NCBI GenBank assembly: GCA_022538095.1
Contig: JAKYXN010000024.1
Span: 1-64,000 of the forward strand
DNA length: 64,000 bases
DNA from: Puniceicoccaceae bacterium K14
Lineage (GTDB): Bacteria; Verrucomicrobiota; Verrucomicrobiia; Opitutales; Opitutaceae
Reading direction: 5' to 3'
Position numbers and translations under genes: made by a program. Under the pieces are notes generated by a model, which was not told where the DNA came from, made no database searches, and worked only from the letters and a program-made list of their open reading frames with translations. This document shows positions 15,720 through 25,809 of this stretch, one piece after another (positions within the stretch are counted from its first letter, which is position 1; the number at the start of each line of letters is the position of its first letter).

Positions 15720-17684
15720 TTAGCTATTAGCCCGTTGGTCAGCGTCTGCGAGGACCTCTTCTTTGAGTGCCTTCAACGCTTCGTTTGTCTTCGCTTTCAC
15801 GGTATCGAGTTCGCCAGCGCTTTCAACGTCTTCGCAGCCAAACAAGTAGAACTTGATTTTAGGCTCAGTTCCGCTACCTCGAACCGCATAACGGTATCCG
15901 TTTTCCAACTCCAAGAAATACAGATCTTGGCTTGGAATCTTCTTACCGTCTGCATCAAAGACCTCTTCACGTCCAAAGTCAGTGAACTTGAGGACCTTCG
16001 ATCCCAAGAATTCGCTAGGTGGATTCGAACGGTAGGTTTCGAGGATTCGAGCGATTTTTGCTGCACCCGCTGCGCCTTCGTAAACAAGCTGTCCAAGTCC
16101 TTCTAGGAAGAAACCATTCTCCAAGTAAATTTCGTCCAAATATTCAGGAACTGTCTTCCCTTGGGCCTTCAAGCTAGCGGCCAATTCACAGAAAATTGCA
16201 CTTGCCGCATTCGCATCCTTGTCGCGCACAGAGTCTGTTGGAAGGTACCCATAACTCTCTTCTCCCCCAAAGACATAGTAGGTGCTGTGCTTTTGAAGCA
16301 GCACGCTGCGCTCGCGCTGAGAAAGGCTATCATAGTCGAGCTCTTCGCCAGTCTCTGCCTTGTGAGCCGCTTTGGCTTGATCTTCATACGCTTTGAGTTT
16401 TTCCGCGATCCACTTGAAACCGGTGAGCGTATTTATCACCTTGATACCATGATTTTTTCCAATCGCATCTTGCAATGGCGAAGTAACGAACGTTTTGATC
16501 AAAACGATATTCGAACCGCCATTTTCCGGAATCCAGCCCAGTTCCTTGAGCTTTTTGATACGATAGTCAGCTAGCAATGCTCCGATCTGGTTGCCCGTGA
16601 TCAACTGCATATTGCCGTCTGTATCGCGCACAGAAACTCCCATGCGGTCCGCATCGGGATCGGTGCCCATCAAAATATCCGCTCCTTCCTTAATCGCAAG
16701 ATCTGTTGCCAACTGAAGGGCTTCTGCATTTTCAGGGTTGGGCGATTTCACAGTAGAAAAGTTAGAGTCTTTCTGCATTTGCTCCTCAACTGTTAGAGGA
16801 GTGAAACCGAGCCTTTTAAACGCTGGCAAACTGATGATCGCTCCAGTCCCGTGGATTGGAGTGAAAACAGCTTTAAGGTCTGCTTTCGAAAACGCGTCAC
16901 GGTCGATAACTGTTTCAACGACGGCATCTGTGTAAACTTCGTCGAGCTTAGAATCGAGGATGTTAACCTTTGAAAGGTCTGGTTTAAGGAATGGCGAAAC
17001 GTCTTCCAACGAAACGTTGTCCACTTCAGAGATGATTCCCGTGTCACTTGGCGGCACTACTTGTCCCCCATCGGCAAAGTAAACTTTGTAACCATTGTAC
17101 TGTGGCGGGTTGTGACTGGCTGTAATTACGATTCCGCAGGTAGCTCCTACTTCACGAACCGTGAAACTCAGTTGCGGTGTTGAGCGTGGCCCGTCAAAGA
17201 TAAAAGCTTCACCCCCGAGCTTTGACCATGTCGATGCTGCGAGTTCGCAGAAAAACTGAGAGAAATGTCGAACGTCGTAAGCGATTACTAGCTTCGGAGC
17301 GGATTCAATTCCGTTTTCCTTGTGATAGGCAGCAGCATAACGATAGAGACCGCAGGTCGCTCTAGCCAAAGTATATTCGTTGAGCATATTACTGCCAACT
17401 CCAGGGAAGCTCGGAGACTTTGGGTCATCGCCTTTCTCTGTTTTTGTAGAGAGCAGTCCGATTGTGCGCCCTCGCATACCACCTGTTCCAAAAGCGATCT
17501 GCTGGAAAAAACGGTTGTTCAGCTCGTCAGCCTCGTTATTCTCAATCAGCTCCCTGAGACTATTGATTGAGGATTCGCTCAGGAATTTTCCCGAGAGCCA
17601 GGTTTTGAGATTTGCTACCGTAGCTTCAAGCAATTCTCCCTTTTCAGCCAGTGTTTCGACTTTCGCTATTAATTCTGGATTCAT
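15720..17684 (-). CDS. Phospho-sugar mutase (alpha-phosphoglucomutase/phosphomannomutase family)
   Basis: The 654-residue enzyme of the alpha-D-phosphohexomutase family interconverts hexose-1- and hexose-6-phosphates. It shows the phosphoserine loop TASHNPPQYNGYKVY, the Mg-binding GTDPDADRMG, the sugar-specificity GGEESYGYL loop and the phosphate-binding VRGSGTEPKIKFY near the C-terminus. It is longer than the about 460-residue prokaryotic PMM/PGM class and matches the roughly 570-650-residue PgcA-like class, with an extra N-terminal region that includes RGRTIG. It is a single gene with the terminator at 15661-15700. Glucose-1-phosphate supply for polysaccharide synthesis is a likely use. Confidence 0.9.
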   Translation of the reverse strand: MNPELIAKVETLAEKGELLEATVANLKTWLSGKFLSESSINSLRELIENNEADELNNRFFQQIAFGTGGMRGRTIGLLSTKTEKGDDPKSPSFPGVGSNMLNEYTLARATCGLYRYAAAYHKENGIESAPKLVIAYDVRHFSQFFCELAASTWSKLGGEAFIFDGPRSTPQLSFTVREVGATCGIVITASHNPPQYNGYKVYFADGGQVVPPSDTGIISEVDNVSLEDVSPFLKPDLSKVNILDSKLDEVYTDAVVETVIDRDAFSKADLKAVFTPIHGTGAIISLPAFKRLGFTPLTVEEQMQKDSNFSTVKSPNPENAEALQLATDLAIKEGADILMGTDPDADRMGVSVRDTDGNMQLITGNQIGALLADYRIKKLKELGWIPENGGSNIVLIKTFVTSPLQDAIGKNHGIKVINTLTGFKWIAEKLKAYEDQAKAAHKAETGEELDYDSLSQRERSVLLQKHSTYYVFGGEESYGYLPTDSVRDKDANAASAIFCELAASLKAQGKTVPEYLDEIYLENGFFLEGLGQLVYEGAAGAAKIARILETYRSNPPSEFLGSKVLKFTDFGREEVFDADGKKIPSQDLYFLELENGYRYAVRGSGTEPKIKFYLFGCEDVESAGELDTVKAKTNEALKALKEEVLADADQRANS

Positions 17685-17865
17685 CGCCCTCCCTTGATGG
17701 GCAGTTTTCTGCGAGAATCAAATTCTTTCGTGAGTCTCGGTGCCTCTTTTACGAATTCGTTTCGAACAAATTACCCTATAAATAATAACTTTTATAAATT
17801 GCCAAATGTAAATAAGCGATATACCGGCTAGAACATATTTAACCCAAAGCGTATCAAGATCTAAT

Positions 17866-19548
17866 ATGTCAATCCAGACTCAAGACAACACATACATAAT
17901 CGGCCACAAGAACCCCGATGCAGACGCGATCTGTTCCGCCATCGCCTATGCAGAATTAAAAAAACAACAAGGCCATAAGGGGTTTATACCTGCGCGCTGC
18001 GGAAATACAAATGCCCGGATTGATACGATCTTAAACAAATTCAATCAACCGCTTCCAATCTTCCTAGGAGATCTCTCGCCAACGGTAAGCGACATAATGG
18101 TTCGCAACGTCGTTAAAATAAAAGAAGGCGCTACAATTTCAGAAGCATTGGAATTGATTGATCGCCATGACGTACGCTCGATCCCAGTCACCAACGAAGA
18201 CAACATATTAAAGGGCTACGTATCTGTCTTCCAGATGGGAGATTACTTCATCCCAAAGCTCAACGAGCCCAAGGCGATGAGGCAGGTTAATACGTCAATT
18301 TCCAATGTTGTGAAGGCTTTAAAGGCTGACGTTAAACACGTGGTCAAAGGCGATTCGGTTGAAGATATGTTCGTCAAAATTGGGGCGATGGATATTCGTT
18401 CTTTTGGCAAATTCACTGGCTCCTCGGCTATTCCAGCAGAACAAACAATAGTCGTTGTCGGAGATCGTTGGGATATTCAACAACGCTCAATCCAAATAGG
18501 AGTTCGCCTTCTCGTTATAACCGGAAGTCTTGGAGTCGATCCAGAAGTCATAGAAATGGCGAAAGATAATGGGGTTTCTGTCATCATCAGCCCATTCGAT
18601 TCCGCTACGACAGCTTGGACAATCCGTACCGCCTCTCAGGTTGATAAGCTTTACGAGCGAGAGTACATATCATTCGGACCAAACGAACTTCTCAAGAAGG
18701 TTAGCAAGCGTATTGCCAACACAAACGTGCCGGCATATATGGTCGTCGGAGAAGACGGTAAGCTCGTTGGGCTTTTTAGCAAAACGGACATTTTAAAGCC
18801 AACCCGGACGAACATCATTTTGGTAGATCACAATGAGCTCGGGCAAGCCGTTCAAGGAGCTGCCGATGTTAATATTACAGAGATCATTGATCACCATAGA
18901 TTGGGCAACGTCGGCACCCAACAACCTATACTTTTCATCAATGATCCAGTTGGGTCAACCTGTACCATCATAGCGGATCTATTCCGCAGAAGTGAGATAG
19001 ACCCGACCCCAGAAATCGCAGGCATAATGATGAGCGGAATCATATCCGACACATTAAACCTTACCGGACCGACAACGACGCCACGAGATGGAGAAATCCT
19101 TGCCTGGCTGGAAGGCATCTCGGGCGTGACTGCCAATGATCTCGCTCACGAAATTTTCAGCAGCGGTTCAATTATCATTTCGATGACCCCTGACGAGGTT
19201 ATCCGAGCCGACCAAAAAATCTATCAAGAAGGCGATTTTAAATACTCCGTTTCACAAATTGAAGAACTCGGATTCAACAATTTCTGGGACAAAGTAGATG
19301 AACTTTCTGCTGCATTAAATGACTTCCGAGTAGCCGAAGAGCTCACATTTGCCTGCGTTCTAGTAACGGACATCAACAAACACAATTCATTGTTGGTCGT
19401 TAGCGGTGACGAAGACTTTATCGACGCAATTACCTATCCAGCAGTGGAAAAAGGTAGAATCTATGAGCTTAAAGGCGTCGTTAGTCGTAAGAAACAACTA
19501 ATCCCGTTTATAACGAGCACAATCAAGTCAGTGGACTTGAAAGACTAA
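17866..19548 (+). CDS. ppaC: Manganese-dependent inorganic pyrophosphatase with CBS-DRTGG-CBS regulatory insert
   Basis: The 560-residue family II pyrophosphatase hydrolyses PPi to phosphate. The DHH-type core is split: GHKNPDADAICSA at the N-terminus, IIDHHRLGN and NDPVGSTCTIIAD from about residue 335, and the DHHA2 domain ending in SRKKQLIPFI. Between the first motif and the DHH motif lie a CBS half (about 65-125), a DRTGG domain (about 135-250) and a second CBS half (about 265-310). This is the CBS-PPase layout, known from Clostridium-type enzymes regulated by adenine nucleotides and diadenosine polyphosphates. The stop overlaps the convergent CheX-like gene by 4 bases. Confidence 0.93.
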   Translation: MSIQTQDNTYIIGHKNPDADAICSAIAYAELKKQQGHKGFIPARCGNTNARIDTILNKFNQPLPIFLGDLSPTVSDIMVRNVVKIKEGATISEALELIDRHDVRSIPVTNEDNILKGYVSVFQMGDYFIPKLNEPKAMRQVNTSISNVVKALKADVKHVVKGDSVEDMFVKIGAMDIRSFGKFTGSSAIPAEQTIVVVGDRWDIQQRSIQIGVRLLVITGSLGVDPEVIEMAKDNGVSVIISPFDSATTAWTIRTASQVDKLYEREYISFGPNELLKKVSKRIANTNVPAYMVVGEDGKLVGLFSKTDILKPTRTNIILVDHNELGQAVQGAADVNITEIIDHHRLGNVGTQQPILFINDPVGSTCTIIADLFRRSEIDPTPEIAGIMMSGIISDTLNLTGPTTTPRDGEILAWLEGISGVTANDLAHEIFSSGSIIISMTPDEVIRADQKIYQEGDFKYSVSQIEELGFNNFWDKVDELSAALNDFRVAEELTFACVLVTDINKHNSLLVVSGDEDFIDAITYPAVEKGRIYELKGVVSRKKQLIPFITSTIKSVDLKD

Positions 19549-20090
19549 CCTTCGGCAAGAACGAGGTCTGCGACGACGTCGCATCCATTCGATTGAAACG
19601 ATTGGCGCAGATGCTTTTCAACTCCTAGGGATGAAATATACAATTCATCCCCACTAAGCACAGTCGGAATAGTCAGAGTAGAATCATAGCCTATATCGAC
19701 CATCATATTCTTGAAGCTGCCGGAGAACATGTTTGTCAGCTCTCCGCAGACGTCGGTCACGATATCGTAGTCCAAGTCGTCGCCTTCGAGACCTGTAATC
19801 TTTGCGGCAATCGTATTGGCAAACTCTTCTTGCAGGAAAAGGTATATCACCCCACTTGCCTCTCCGACGAACCCAACTGATCCGACGAAAACTGAATTCA
19901 TATCAGAACCACCCAATTTAGGGGCTTGCGGCTTTGTGCCCGAAAAATCCTCGTTACCATTGGCAACTAGTTCGTACGACAGCATCGTATCGAAAACGCT
20001 TTTAAGTGAACTCGAAAGGGTATTTAGGAGGTCAGTATTCGGAAGCTGGGCAATACCTGTCATAACTTTAAGAAATATCGGTAAGCTCAT
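19545..20090 (-). CDS. CheX-like chemotaxis phosphatase-domain protein
   Basis: The 181-residue protein has a CheC/CheX fold from about residue 60 to 180. GSVGFVGEASGVIYL forms the first strands, and the CGELTNMFSGSFK helix carries the E-x-x-N pair that acts as active site in CheX and CheC. CheX dephosphorylates CheY-P and ends the chemosensory signal. It is encoded alone, convergent with ppaC, about 8 kb from the chemosensory cluster at 28231-40207. Being the only CheY-phosphatase candidate in the window, it is a plausible partner of those CheY proteins. Confidence 0.78.
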   Translation of the reverse strand: MSLPIFLKVMTGIAQLPNTDLLNTLSSSLKSVFDTMLSYELVANGNEDFSGTKPQAPKLGGSDMNSVFVGSVGFVGEASGVIYLFLQEEFANTIAAKITGLEGDDLDYDIVTDVCGELTNMFSGSFKNMMVDIGYDSTLTIPTVLSGDELYISSLGVEKHLRQSFQSNGCDVVADLVLAEG

Positions 20091-20274: not shown

Positions 20275-21039
20275 ATGAACGAAAATTTTTACGAAACAGA
20301 TAAAGCAGTGTCAGAGTATCTGCTTTTTCATTACGGAACCGAAAACGAATTTTACGAACAAGGCATTGGAGCCAAGGAAGCCCTCGACTTCGCATCGCGT
20401 TGTGGACTGCTCCACTCAAAAATCCCCCACGGGAACCAAAAACAAAGAGCTTTAGACCTAGGATGCGCGGTCGGTAGAGCAACCTTTGAGCTGAGCGAAG
20501 CATTCGAAGAAGTCGTAGGAATAGACTATGCCCATGCACTCATAGATTCAGCGAAAAAAGTTGCTAGCAAAGAGCCTATAACCATCCAAGTTACAGTTGA
20601 AGGCGACGTCACAAAAGAGACGACAATTCAGGCTCCATTTTCAAGCCAGCCGGAAAAAATCACCTTCCAACAGGGTGACGCGATGTCCCTACCAAGTTCT
20701 ATAGGAACCTTTGATTTCGTGCTAATGGCGAATTTGATCGACCGACTGCCTGACCCTACAAAGTGCCTGGGAGATATCCACAAATTGCTAAACGCAAATG
20801 GAGTTTTAGCGATAACTTCTCCCTACACTTGGATGGAAGAGTACACTCCAAAAGAAAAATGGTTAGGAGGGTTCTATAAAGACGGGGAGGCAATACTAAG
20901 TTTCGATTCTCTAAAAGAGATACTATCTCCAAACTTTCAATTGCTCGAGGATTTCAATATGCCATTCTTAATAAGAGAACACGTTCGTAAAAACCAATTC
21001 ACAGTCGCTCATACGACCATCTGGCAAAAGAAAAAATGA
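20275..21039 (+). CDS. OvoA C-terminal-type SAM methyltransferase (putative 4-mercaptohistidine N1-methyltransferase)
   Basis: The 254-residue class I methyltransferase opens with NFYETDKAVSEYLLFHYG, has the SAM-binding motif ALDLGCAVGRATFEL, the NLIDRLPDP segment, and SPYTWMEEYTPKEKWLGG near the C-terminus. These are the signatures of the C-terminal methyltransferase of the ovothiol enzyme OvoA, which methylates the imidazole N of thiol-histidine. Here it is free-standing, with no sulfoxide synthase domain in the window. Its stop overlaps the start of an amino-acid ABC transporter binding protein (ATGA at 21036-21039), so it belongs to that operon. Confidence 0.82.
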   Translation: MNENFYETDKAVSEYLLFHYGTENEFYEQGIGAKEALDFASRCGLLHSKIPHGNQKQRALDLGCAVGRATFELSEAFEEVVGIDYAHALIDSAKKVASKEPITIQVTVEGDVTKETTIQAPFSSQPEKITFQQGDAMSLPSSIGTFDFVLMANLIDRLPDPTKCLGDIHKLLNANGVLAITSPYTWMEEYTPKEKWLGGFYKDGEAILSFDSLKEILSPNFQLLEDFNMPFLIREHVRKNQFTVAHTTIWQKKK

Positions 21040-21857
21040 AAACGCCAAGCCACGCACGACTTCAATTCAGCAAGCAAGTCATTGGCTCGCTTCTGGGGCT
21101 GCTAACCATTCTGTTCATTTCAGCCTGCTCCACCCCAAAGGATGATTCTACACTTGTTGTTGGCATGGAGCTAGCCTATCCGCCGTTCGAAATGACGGAT
21201 GAACAAAATAACCCGACTGGCGTGAGCGTAGAGATGGCTCAAGCTCTCGCTAAACATTTAGGACGAGAGCTAAGGATCGAAAACATTCCATTTGCGGGGC
21301 TAATTCCAGCCCTTAGAACAGGAAAAATTGATGTTATCATTTCCTCAATGACCGCTACCGATGAACGAAGAGAATCAATCGATTTTTCTGATGCGTACTT
21401 ATCAACCGGTTTATGTTTACTTGTATCCAAAAACTCTGCAATAACTAGCATTGATGAATTAGATAAGGCAGGTGTGTCGATCGCGGTAAAGCAAGGAACA
21501 ACCGGTCATGTATACGCTGCTTCGAGCATCAAACACGCAAACGTACTTCTATTCGACAAAGAGTCAGCTGCTGTACTCGAAGTGAGCCAAGAAAAGGCCG
21601 ATGCCTTCATCTACGACCAAATGTCGACTTTCATGAATTGGAAACGCAACCAAGAAACCACCACAGCGCTTCTCAATCCATTAAAAAAAGAATCCTGGGC
21701 GATAGGGATCGCAAAATCAAACGAAGCCCTTCTGTCTGAAATCAACGATTTTCTGGCTACCTTTTCCCAAAGCGGTGGATTCGATTCCTTGGGAGAGAAA
21801 TACTTGAAAGAACAAAAAGAAGAATTTGAGAAACTTGGAATTCCATTCTACTTTTAA
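21036..21857 (+). CDS. Polar amino-acid ABC transporter substrate-binding lipoprotein
   Basis: The 273-residue protein has a lipoprotein signal with lipobox LFISAC (Cys about residue 31) and an SBP_bac_3 fold: VGMELAYPPFEMTDEQ, then GVSVEMAQALAKHLGR, IPALRTGKIDVIISSMTAT, and the late SWAIGIAKSNEALL segment. Members bind amino acids such as His, Arg, Gln or cystine in the periplasm. The tight coupling to the OvoA-C-type methyltransferase upstream suggests a histidine-related ligand, which is inference. Confidence 0.9.
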   Translation: MKTPSHARLQFSKQVIGSLLGLLTILFISACSTPKDDSTLVVGMELAYPPFEMTDEQNNPTGVSVEMAQALAKHLGRELRIENIPFAGLIPALRTGKIDVIISSMTATDERRESIDFSDAYLSTGLCLLVSKNSAITSIDELDKAGVSIAVKQGTTGHVYAASSIKHANVLLFDKESAAVLEVSQEKADAFIYDQMSTFMNWKRNQETTTALLNPLKKESWAIGIAKSNEALLSEINDFLATFSQSGGFDSLGEKYLKEQKEEFEKLGIPFYF

Positions 21858-21866
21858 AGGCAATTG

Positions 21867-22652
21867 ATGAGTTTCTTTTTTGAAGACAGCCCAAGCTCTC
21901 CAAGTAGCCCCAAACAGGCAAAGCACTTTGTGTCCTTCGGGTGTGCATTTCTCTTTCTGTCTTTTTTTGTCTTTCTTGCATTCACCGCTATCGATTACAA
22001 TTGGAACTGGTCATCTGTATTTCAATACAAGAAAAAATTCATCGATGGATGGCTCATAAGTGTCGGCATATCATTTGTCACACTCTTCTTTAGCCTTATT
22101 GTTGGGTTCTTAGCTGCCATGGGAAAACGTTCCACTTTGCTACCCATCAAATATGTAGCATCTATCTATATCGAATTAGTGAGAGGGACTCCGCTCCTCG
22201 TTCAGATCTACCTCTTCTATTATGTGATAGCGGATGCGGCTGGCGTAGACAATCGCTATGTCATGGGAGTCGTCATCATGTCCCTTTTCAGCGGAGCATA
22301 TATCGCGGAAATCTTCAGAGCTGGAATTGAAAGCGTCGGGAAGTCGCAACTCCTCTCTGCTAAAGCGATAGGCCTGAGTTCAAAACAAACTTATCGCTTC
22401 GTCATTATCCCCCAGGCTCTACGTAATAGCCTTCCTGCCTTAGCGGGTCAATTTGCCAATTTGATTAAAGACTCATCTCTACTTTCGACGATAGCCATCC
22501 GTGAATTCACTCTGAACGCCCAAGAAGTAAATTCCATTACCTACAGCTCTTTCGAAAGCTATTTCCCCTTAGCAATTGGATACCTCGCTATCACTTTGCC
22601 CGTAATGCAACTGTCTCGCGTCATAGAAAATAAAATACGCTTCGAAACGTGA
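21867..22652 (+). CDS. Amino-acid ABC transporter permease (HisMQ family)
   Basis: The 261-residue membrane protein starts at the ATG at 21867, with AAAGG six bases upstream. It has an N-terminal membrane segment near 27-50 and a permease core with ELVRGTPLLVQIYLFYY, GAYIAEIFRAGIESV and the EAA-type coupling loop AKAIGLSSKQTYRFVIIPQALR. It forms the channel for the binding protein upstream, with the ATPase gene overlapping its stop. Confidence 0.93.
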   Translation: MSFFFEDSPSSPSSPKQAKHFVSFGCAFLFLSFFVFLAFTAIDYNWNWSSVFQYKKKFIDGWLISVGISFVTLFFSLIVGFLAAMGKRSTLLPIKYVASIYIELVRGTPLLVQIYLFYYVIADAAGVDNRYVMGVVIMSLFSGAYIAEIFRAGIESVGKSQLLSAKAIGLSSKQTYRFVIIPQALRNSLPALAGQFANLIKDSSLLSTIAIREFTLNAQEVNSITYSSFESYFPLAIGYLAITLPVMQLSRVIENKIRFET

Positions 22653-23380
22653 ATTTAGCAGTAAACAAAATTACGAAACGCTACGGCGATCAAAGGGCTC
22701 TAGACGGATTCACTCTACAGGCCAATGATTTTAGCTGTCTCGCCTTTATTGGTCCATCGGGTGGTGGGAAATCTACGGCATTACGACATTTATGCGGATT
22801 GGAAATTCCCGATTCTGGAGAAATTAGATTAAACGATTCGATTCTTCCGGCACAGGAAAACGAATTGCTCAATTTTCGAAAATCGATTGGAATCGTTTTC
22901 CAGTCCTATAATCTTTTCCCTCATTTTACAGCTCTAGAAAACGTGACGCTACCCCTTGTTCAAGTTCACGCAATGGATGCGAAAAATGCAAACTCGCGGG
23001 CAATGGAATTGCTAGGTCGTTTTGGCTTAAGTAATCACGCCAATAAGAGACCCGCCGAGCTTTCCGGCGGGCAGTCGCAGCGCGTCGCAATCGCACGAGC
23101 TCTAGCTCCCGACCCGAGTATCCTGTTTTTGGATGAACCGACATCTGCCCTCGATCCAGAGATGACAGCCGAAGTATTGGAAGCAATCGAATCACTTGTA
23201 GCTGACGGTAAGAAGATCGTTCTAGTAACCCACGAAATGGGATTTGCTCAGAAAGCTGCGGACCAAGTCGCTTTTATCGCTAACGGCAAAGTCATTGAGC
23301 ATTCCACTTCGACGGACCTCTTCAATAGACCACAATCTCAGACCTGCGAAAAATTTTTGAGTAGAGTATTAAAGTATTAG
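22649..23380 (+). CDS. Amino-acid ABC transporter ATPase (GlnQ/HisP family)
   Basis: The 243-residue ATPase starts at a GTG overlapping the permease stop (GTGA). It carries Walker A (GPSGGGKST), Q-loop (VFQSYNLFPH), signature (LSGGQSQRVAIARA), Walker B (ILFLDEPTSALDP) and H-loop (VTHEMGFA). It energises the uptake system encoded by the two preceding genes and is the last gene of the four-gene operon. Confidence 0.94.
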   Translation: MNLAVNKITKRYGDQRALDGFTLQANDFSCLAFIGPSGGGKSTALRHLCGLEIPDSGEIRLNDSILPAQENELLNFRKSIGIVFQSYNLFPHFTALENVTLPLVQVHAMDAKNANSRAMELLGRFGLSNHANKRPAELSGGQSQRVAIARALAPDPSILFLDEPTSALDPEMTAEVLEAIESLVADGKKIVLVTHEMGFAQKAADQVAFIANGKVIEHSTSTDLFNRPQSQTCEKFLSRVLKY

Positions 23381-23445: not shown

Positions 23446-23952
23446 ATGGCAAAGAAATATTGGCTTATTAAAAGCGAACCCGATGTGTTTTCGCTTGATC
23501 ACTTAAAAAACTGCCCCGATCAAACAGAACATTGGGATGGCATTCGAAACTATCAGGCTCGCAATCTCATGCGCGATGAAATGCAAGAAGGAGACGAGGC
23601 CATATTCTATCACTCCAACGCAGGCAAAGAAACAGGAGCCGTAGGCCTCTCCCGCGTGGTTAGCGAAAGCGCATATCCAGACTATACTTCATGGGACCCG
23701 AAATCGAAATACTACGACGAAAAATCATCGGAAGAAAATCCGCGTTGGGTCATGGTCGATTTTAAGTGGCGAGCTGAATTCCCCAAATTGGTGAGCCTCC
23801 AAGATATGAAAAAGGCGGATAACCTAGACGGAATGCTGGTGATCAAACAAGGACAACGCCTTTCCATTCAACCGGTCGAAAAGAAGCACTTTGTCGAAGT
23901 TTGCAAGATGGGTGGCCTAAAGGCTTCCGAGATAAAGGCCCTTGGCCTGTAA
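23446..23952 (+). CDS. EVE domain protein
   Basis: The protein (168 residues from the ATG at 23446, after discarding an upstream TTG extension) begins YWLIKSEPDVFS and shows GIRNYQARNLMRDEMQEGDEAIFYHSN and later AEFPKLVSLQDMK. These define the EVE/thymocyte nuclear protein 1 fold, related to PUA and YTH. EVE domains bind modified bases in DNA or RNA. It stands alone here, without an adjacent restriction gene, so a housekeeping role is more likely than defence. Confidence 0.9.
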   Translation: MAKKYWLIKSEPDVFSLDHLKNCPDQTEHWDGIRNYQARNLMRDEMQEGDEAIFYHSNAGKETGAVGLSRVVSESAYPDYTSWDPKSKYYDEKSSEENPRWVMVDFKWRAEFPKLVSLQDMKKADNLDGMLVIKQGQRLSIQPVEKKHFVEVCKMGGLKASEIKALGL

Positions 23953-24083
23953 ACTGCTATTCACCAATGCCTTTGCAACAATAAGGTGAAAGAACGTTAC
24001 ACTCAGGAAAATTTAGTCGCGTTCCCCTTTTCCGAATTTCTAAAAAATGCCGTCCCATTCATCATCGGGACACTTACTATTCT

Positions 24084-25043
24084 ATGTCTACAGTAGAGGA
24101 TACATTCAAATTCGATCCCAGTTATGGTTACACTCCTGAGGAGCTACTTCAGGTTGGGGCCCCGGAAGGGCCGGGTGACTTTGATTCATTTTGGCAAAAA
24201 CGCTATAAACGAGCTCTCGTGGTAAGTCCACGTCCCCGAATAAAGGATACTGGGGAAACAATAAATGGAGCCAGAATCTTTAAAATAACCCACAGATCAA
24301 CGGAGGCAGCAGTTATCGGAGGTTGGCTTACTCTGCCAGAAAACGGTGTGATAAATCGCGGATTTGTAGTGGGCCATGGCTACGGTGGCCGTGAAGGGCC
24401 AGACCTCCACCTTCCCTTCAAAGATGCCGCCATTCTATTTCCTTGCGCTCGTGGCATTTCAAGAAGCCCCTACCCAAATGTTTCCCCAGATCCTGGTTGG
24501 CACGTCATCCACGACCTGGCTGACCCCAATCGTTACATTATTGGCCACTGCGTTGAGGACATTTGGCTAGCTGCTTCAACATTGATTCGGCTTTTCCCAC
24601 AGGTGCAAGGCCACCTAGGTTATTTAGGAATCAGTTTTGGTGGTGGGATCGGAGCCATGGCGATGGCCTTTGACGATCGCTATCAAAAAGCGCATTTCAA
24701 TGTCCCCACTTTTGGCAATCAACCTCTTCGCCTAGAATTACCCACAACTGGAAGTGGAGCCGCTGTTCAGGTGTTTCACAAGCGCTATCCAGAGCAAACC
24801 CAAAACACCTTGAAGTACTACGATGCAGCAATTTCAGCGAGCCGTATGAAAATCCCAACACACTATGCCTGTGCATTGTACGACCCAATGGTAGCCCCTC
24901 CAGGTCAATTTGCTATCTACAACCAGACTCAATCACCCAAACAGCTCTATACCCTAACCGCGGGGCACTACGAATACGAAGATCAAGCGAAGGAAGACGC
25001 CGAATTACTGAGCGAATTAGACGTCTTCTTTTCGGATCTGTAG
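24084..25043 (+). CDS. Acetyl-xylan-esterase-like alpha/beta hydrolase (AXE1/CE7-like)
   Basis: The 319-residue protein lacks a signal peptide. It shows the alpha/beta-hydrolase triad: nucleophile Ser about 184 in LGISFGGGIG, Asp about 267 in ALYDPMVAP and His about 295 in TAGHYEYE. The N-terminal FDSFWQKRYKRAL and the middle CARGISRSPYPN match the acetyl xylan esterase/cephalosporin deacetylase layout, though diverged. It probably removes acyl groups from imported carbohydrates. The next gene is another esterase on the same strand 37 bases on. Confidence 0.75.
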   Translation: MSTVEDTFKFDPSYGYTPEELLQVGAPEGPGDFDSFWQKRYKRALVVSPRPRIKDTGETINGARIFKITHRSTEAAVIGGWLTLPENGVINRGFVVGHGYGGREGPDLHLPFKDAAILFPCARGISRSPYPNVSPDPGWHVIHDLADPNRYIIGHCVEDIWLAASTLIRLFPQVQGHLGYLGISFGGGIGAMAMAFDDRYQKAHFNVPTFGNQPLRLELPTTGSGAAVQVFHKRYPEQTQNTLKYYDAAISASRMKIPTHYACALYDPMVAPPGQFAIYNQTQSPKQLYTLTAGHYEYEDQAKEDAELLSELDVFFSDL

Positions 25044-25080
25044 ATTATAAGTACATAAGGACACCCGCTAACTAGATAGG

Positions 25081-25809
25081 ATGAATCGAGAATATCATAA
25101 ATGGTGGAGTCCTTATCTAAGGCGAGAAATGGAACTTCTCGTACATGGTCATGCGGGGGCCAAAGTATTGGTTTTTCCAACACGGGGGGGACGTTTTTAC
25201 GAGTACGAGAACCTGCGAATGGTCAAGGTACTCCAAGATAAAATTAGAGCCGGGCATATCCAATTATTCTGCGTGGATAGTATCGACTCGGAGAGCTTTT
25301 ATTGTTGGTGGGCACACCCCTCTGGGCGCATAGAACGGCACAAGGAATACGAAAATTACGTTATCAATGAAGTGATTCCTTTTATGAACGAGAAGAACTC
25401 AAATCCTTGCACAATATCGCATGGCATGAGTCTCGGAGCCTTCCATGCCGGAAATATTGCGTTCCGTCATCCAAGTAAATTCCAAAAACTTGTGGCTCTC
25501 TCGGGGCGCTTTGATCTGACGCTACAAGTAGAGTATTTTGGCGACCTATTTAACGGGTATTACAACGACGATATATATTTCAATACACCGACTCACTTCC
25601 TCCCTTCCCTCGATTGTCCCGTTCGAATGCAAGACCTTAAGGATATGGAAATCACGCTAGTGATTGGCGAGGATGATCCATTCAAAGAGAATAACAAACA
25701 CCTTAGTCAAATCCTCCAAGCAAAAGGAATTGATCATAATCTCCACTTCTGGGAGCACCGGGCTCATCGCGGCTACTACTGGCGACGAATGGCCCCACAG
25801 TTCCTTTAA
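25081..25809 (+). CDS. Esterase D-like alpha/beta hydrolase
   Basis: The 242-residue cytoplasmic protein resembles the putative esterase (PF00756) family: nucleophile Ser about 117 in HGMSLGAFHAGN, an acid residue in VIGEDDPF (about 208) and a His in EHRAHRGYYW (about 230). Most relatives hydrolyse small acyl esters. It follows the AXE1-like gene with little gap and may form an operon with it. The natural substrate is unknown. Confidence 0.78.
   Translation: MNREYHKWWSPYLRREMELLVHGHAGAKVLVFPTRGGRFYEYENLRMVKVLQDKIRAGHIQLFCVDSIDSESFYCWWAHPSGRIERHKEYENYVINEVIPFMNEKNSNPCTISHGMSLGAFHAGNIAFRHPSKFQKLVALSGRFDLTLQVEYFGDLFNGYYNDDIYFNTPTHFLPSLDCPVRMQDLKDMEITLVIGEDDPFKENNKHLSQILQAKGIDHNLHFWEHRAHRGYYWRRMAPQFL

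Follow-up and report, generated by a model that had tools for sequence, protein, structure and literature searches.

The closest described relatives of the enzyme analysed here are OvoM and OvsM, free-standing N-methyltransferases acting on 5-thiohistidine and 5-selenohistidine (PDB 9bxl and 9bxh), and the methyltransferase half of bifunctional OvoA, represented by OvoA-Th2 (PDB 8khq), which is homologous to it. An alternative handling of 5-thiohistidine is found in the N-acetyltransferase systems of Proteiniphilum, and some of the OvoA proteins of those systems lack the methyltransferase module (PMC12631010). We found no literature on free-standing proteins of the OvoA C-terminal type in Verrucomicrobiota.

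Here we describe such a protein from Puniceicoccaceae bacterium K14, encoded in a stretch of 64,000 nucleotides (contig JAKYXN010000024.1) that we refer to as the window. Like OvoM and OvsM, the window enzyme is free-standing, belongs to the same family and carries the same eight residues that these proteins share with OvoA-Th2. Unlike them, it falls into a separate Verrucomicrobiota clade, is tied in an operon to an amino-acid importer, and is of a type that occurs either beside a full-length OvoA with a degenerate methyltransferase domain or beside an unnamed protein, which we call U1. In comparison with bifunctional OvoA, the synthase and the working methyltransferase are here apparently two genes, with OvoA keeping a non-canonical leftover domain. 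This arrangement also differs from that of Proteiniphilum, where the domain is absent and acetylation is used instead, whereas here the domain is kept in degenerate form and methylation would be provided in trans.

A free-standing OvoA-C-type methyltransferase heads an amino-acid importer operon

The first gene of the operon (20275..21039, plus strand) encodes a 254-aa, OvoM-like SAM methyltransferase that matches the complete NCBIfam model TIGR04345, ovoA_Cterm (positions 1-242 of 242), with 240.9 bits against a curated cut-off of 170 bits, while the next-best family reached 40 bits. Its nearest PDB chains were OvsM (9bxh, 6.6e-57), OvoA-Th2 (8khq, 3.7e-56) and OvoM (9bxl, 6.6e-50), and the profile search detected no sulfoxide synthase fused to it. 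The TGA stop codon of this gene (21037-21039) shares a 4-bp overlap with the ATG (21036-21038) of the following gene, which confirms the original prediction of an ovothiol-type methyltransferase domain, devoid of the synthase, overlapping the start of a polar amino-acid ABC importer operon. The region 21036-23380 is a complete importer of this type (PAAT) within one operon. It consists of a family-3 amino-acid binding lipoprotein (21036..21857, plus strand; SBP_bac_3, 8.3e-37) with a lipoprotein-type signal ending in ...FISAC, a HEQRo-type permease (21864..22652, plus strand, starting with TTG at 21864 or ATG at 21867; BPD_transp_1 and HEQRo_perm_3TM, both over cut-off) and an ATPase with a GTG start (22649..23380, plus strand; ABC_tran, 2.1e-32), the genes for the last two again overlapping by 4 bp.

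The methyltransferase domain of OvoA in the same genome is degenerate

A search of the genome for the 5-histidylcysteine sulfoxide synthase on which the original prediction depended recovered a 713-aa OvoA, located on a different contig from the operon (G000:C302:24109-26196). Its N-terminal synthase domain scored 681 bits against TIGR04344 (cut-off 400) and has kept the HERIH motif, as in other OvoA of the phylum; in the neighbourhoods of OvoA, judged from cluster examples, we saw no conserved lyase gene that could represent OvoB. The proposal of a split ovothiol pathway therefore holds insofar as the methyltransferase is a separate gene in a genome that also encodes the synthase, but the division is an unusual one, because the synthase still bears a C-terminal methyltransferase domain of its own.

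To compare the two kinds of domain, we used eight diagnostic residues, namely those common to OvsM (9bxh), OvoM (9bxl) and OvoA-Th2 (8khq) in the alignment (D61, N153, D156, P183, T185, E235, K239 and Q241 in the numbering of the window enzyme). All eight are kept by the window methyltransferase and by 20/20 free-standing copies of its family (f1), and free-standing copies at distant loci keep seven or eight. The C domain of OvoA from the window's genome has none of them left, the family as a whole accounts for 19 fused domains, which have 0-1/8, and the 11 fused domains of the sister families f20 and f14 have 0-4/8; fused OvoA from five genera of other phyla have the full set. The loss is progressive, with f14 at 4/8 and the others at 0-1/8. 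D156 is replaced by Cys in the nine free-standing copies from f20 and the one from f14, as well as in most free-standing copies of the order from genomes devoid of OvoA, and some f20 copies also carry Ser at T185 or Glu at D61, so that the eight positions are unequally strict.

After this comparison we predicted that genomes devoid of the free-standing enzyme should have intact fused domains, as expected if that enzyme has assumed the reaction elsewhere. The phylum scan yielded nine Verrucomicrobiota genomes from five families with a fused OvoA and no free-standing copy, and all nine domains retain 8/8 residues. Conversely, the free-standing enzyme is present in all but one of the genomes that contribute the 30 fused OvoA with 0-4/8 residues from the three related families, although these degenerate domains form one clade (support 100/100) and therefore represent one decay event, not 30 independent ones. 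With a dN/dS of about 0.03-0.16, similar to that of the N domain, the degenerate domain is under strong purifying selection, and hence has some role, such as scaffolding, regulation or a changed reaction, and is not mere debris. Apart from these families, a Streptomyces plasmid encodes an OvoA whose C domain is very divergent (L207:2818-5211, 5/8 residues) and whose gene is followed by another SAM methyltransferase gene, possibly a further case of shared methylation duties.

The same association is seen at the level of genome content. Among 200 genomes of the window's family, a fused OvoA occurs in 19, and the free-standing gene is found in 19/19 of these; two further family genomes, G041 and the fragmentary G166, contain the free-standing gene with no OvoA detected. 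The ovoA_Cterm domain is present in 124 of 273 sampled genomes from the order and the OvoA N domain in 16, of which 15 have the free-standing gene, and 108/124 genomes with the enzyme are OvoA-less. As a separate observation, in one f20 genome (G218, assembly 98% complete) the free-standing methyltransferase is missing and OvoA is spread over two frames (561 + 428 aa) with its N domain partly repeated (L291, G218:C1:2888500-2894500); intact OvoA and the free-standing enzyme seem to have been lost together.

Because the synthase's own C domain has lost the conserved residues, we read the window gene as its replacement in trans. We infer both catalysis and substrate, and give a probability of roughly 60% to the view that its product performs the 5-thiohistidine N-methylation step of an ovothiol-type pathway in place of the decayed OvoA domain. 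In such a pathway, the N-terminal domain of OvoA would make the histidine-cysteine sulfoxide, which a C-S lyase would convert to 5-thiohistidine; the C-terminal domain, presumably dead in this respect, would no longer methylate this product, and the free-standing enzyme would do so instead. The co-transcribed importer could supply an amino acid to the pathway, with histidine, cystine and external thiohistidine as candidates. A degenerate OvoA half together with a persisting, older free-standing enzyme offers a clean test of the function of that half, and also warns that 'full-length OvoA' need not mean that ovothiol A is made by OvoA alone.

The methyltransferase is an old resident of the phylum and is otherwise partnered by U1

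In a tree of 128 domains, a single clade (100/99) unites the fused OvoA-C domains with OvoM and OvsM and excludes the free-standing proteins of Verrucomicrobiota, that of the window among them. The tree rules out a recent origin of the free-standing gene from the fused domain by duplication; given its position, the gene belongs to an old resident Verrucomicrobiota family and did not arise as a copy of that domain. The same position outside the clade of the characterised thiohistidine methyltransferases means that the substrate could differ.

Of 63 distant loci, about half have directly upstream of the methyltransferase a gene for U1, an unnamed protein of ~385 aa (for example L107:1765-2922, plus strand; L092:571-1710; G041:C67:22553-23674). 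U1 is present in 101/273 genomes of the order, comprising 97 of the 108 that have the methyltransferase and are OvoA-less, four devoid of the methyltransferase and 0/16 with OvoA. Likewise, among 327 genomes of the phylum (completeness 85% or more, U1 counted by strong hits), the distribution of U1 coincides with that of the OvoA-less free-standing methyltransferase, both being present in the same 48 genomes from 13 families, none of which has OvoA. In the window's family, U1 was not found in the seven tested out of 19 genomes with OvoA. Mapped on the tree, the partner 'OvoA' requires four changes (four across the bootstrap range), at least two of which are forced by well-supported branches; the mutual exclusion of OvoA and U1 therefore does not stem only from one ancestral event.

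We also considered a hidden OvoA in U1 genomes, but 35 such genomes gave weak matches, the best with 126 bits and all others under 60, against a cut-off of 400. The best match is itself a distant OvoA-N-like protein (L259, G237:C13:242238-243200) that may be an EgtB- or SenA-like sulfoxide or selenoxide synthase.

Within the window's own family, G041 has no OvoA and encodes in a row U1 (C67:22553-23674), the methyltransferase (23713-24438) and the binding protein (24493-25254), a gene order that matches Pedosphaera-type loci. The G041 methyltransferase is sister to the OvoA-partnered group of the family (100/95), and the window operon looks like a U1-methyltransferase-importer operon minus U1, in a lineage with OvoA. 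The methyltransferase would thus be the resident enzyme that is normally partnered by U1, and lineages that acquired OvoA would have lost U1 and kept the methyltransferase. The most interesting lead of this analysis, U1 as an alternative partner that is never seen with OvoA, lies outside the window; this strict either-or, with the methyltransferase common to both states, suggests a second pathway that can be tested for across the whole phylum.

U1 combines the M29/NicX fold with M29-type metal ligands

U1 has no Pfam match at E 0.01, Peptidase_M29 (PF02073) included, and no NCBIfam match, and PDB sequence searches with U1 and with a U1 profile returned nothing useful. Its AlphaFold2 model (pLDDT 84.9, pTM 0.81) is closest among solved folds to NicX (7cn3, Z 25.6), followed by the M29 aminopeptidases PepS, AmpT and AmpS (Z about 19). 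NicX is a dioxygenase with non-heme Fe(II) that acts on a nitrogen heterocycle. Weak sequence similarity connects U1 to M29-like 'aminopeptidases' (best 1e-11), and E228, E290, E308, H315, H341 and D343 of U1 are conserved and align with these M29-like proteins. On the strength of this similarity and of the conserved ligands, we favour an M29-type metal site in U1. The metal ligands of NicX are H265, S302, H318 and D320 (PMC7910607), and U1 does not share them as a set; we therefore did not retain U1 as a NicX-like dioxygenase, since its ligand set is that of the M29 enzymes even though NicX is the top fold match. U1 hence shares the fold with both groups and the metal ligands with the M29 aminopeptidases, from which it differs in having no PF02073 match and in being genetically bound to a methyltransferase.

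A tentative idea, which we would not yet back, is that U1 stands in for OvoA without being homologous to it. A metalloenzyme of the M29/NicX fold and a free-standing methyltransferase would then constitute a new route, found across Verrucomicrobiota, to 5-thiohistidine, ovothiol or a closely similar compound, and in the lineage of the window OvoA would have displaced this route. For an unannotated family, this would be a first functional hypothesis. The 108 OvoA-less genomes, the position of the enzyme outside the ovothiol methyltransferase clade and the hydrolase-type metal ligands of U1, which do not suggest C-S bond formation, would also fit a different explanation. Here the free-standing enzyme would methylate a substrate other than 5-thiohistidine in a U1-centred amino-acid pathway unrelated to ovothiol, and would be found together with OvoA only as a consequence of how the lineages evolved. 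We consider this explanation unlikely, since the enzyme has kept the residues shared by OvoM, OvsM and OvoA, the window's family retains it solely alongside OvoA or, in the case of G041, alongside U1, and it is difficult to see why the fused domain decayed if no other enzyme had assumed its step.

The importer is linked to the methyltransferase and is accessory to its pairing with OvoA

Orthologues of the binding protein (60-66% identity) are found in exactly the 21 methyltransferase-bearing genomes among the 200 of the family, and the gene adjoins the free-standing methyltransferase in the family loci examined. Because of this exact coincidence, the linkage between methyltransferase and importer is beyond chance. 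Orthologues (56-64%) also occur in eight distant loci, most of them with U1. In f20, which has both OvoA and the free-standing methyltransferase, no such importer lies alongside in nine of the nine loci examined, and the importer is therefore accessory and not essential to the pairing of OvoA with the methyltransferase.

In an alignment with solved family-3 relatives, the binding protein keeps the Arg of the alpha-carboxylate site and a later Asp, which we take to be the residues that contact the alpha-amino acid in this protein family. As judged from these positions, the ligand is probably an alpha-amino acid, with a side-chain specificity that is not readable from sequence, and the profile search gave no equivalog model over cut-off for the importer genes. 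Uptake of a thiol-histidine, as in the original prediction, would be compatible with these contacts, which are not specific to it.

The retained contacts, the perfect linkage in the family and its recurrence in the eight distant loci, along with the M29-type ligands of U1, could also be accommodated by salvage, whereby the importer would take up thiohistidine, or in U1 genomes a conjugate that U1 hydrolyses, for conversion to ovothiol A by the methyltransferase, and OvoA would be a second source. This scenario is rather unlikely, since no such importer adjoins many of the U1-methyltransferase pairs or any of the nine loci examined in f20. Finally, each OvoA genome of the family has two homologous methyltransferases and the N-alpha enzyme for ovothiols B and C is listed as unknown (PMC12631010), yet it is very improbable that the free-standing enzyme methylates the alpha-amino group to give ovothiol B or C while the fused domain makes ovothiol A, because the conserved residues are missing from the fused domain and not from the free-standing group, which has those of the N-pi enzymes, and because most genomes with the free-standing enzyme have no OvoA.

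On the opposite side of the 5-thiohistidine methyltransferase candidate, and outside its operon, lies a CheX-like gene (19545..20090, minus strand; PF13690) that is its neighbour in most loci of the family. It closes a group of genes at 15720-20090 of the window, for a phosphoglucomutase, a CBS/DRTGG manganese pyrophosphatase and the CheX-like protein, the order of which is kept at the flank of the operon in most family loci.
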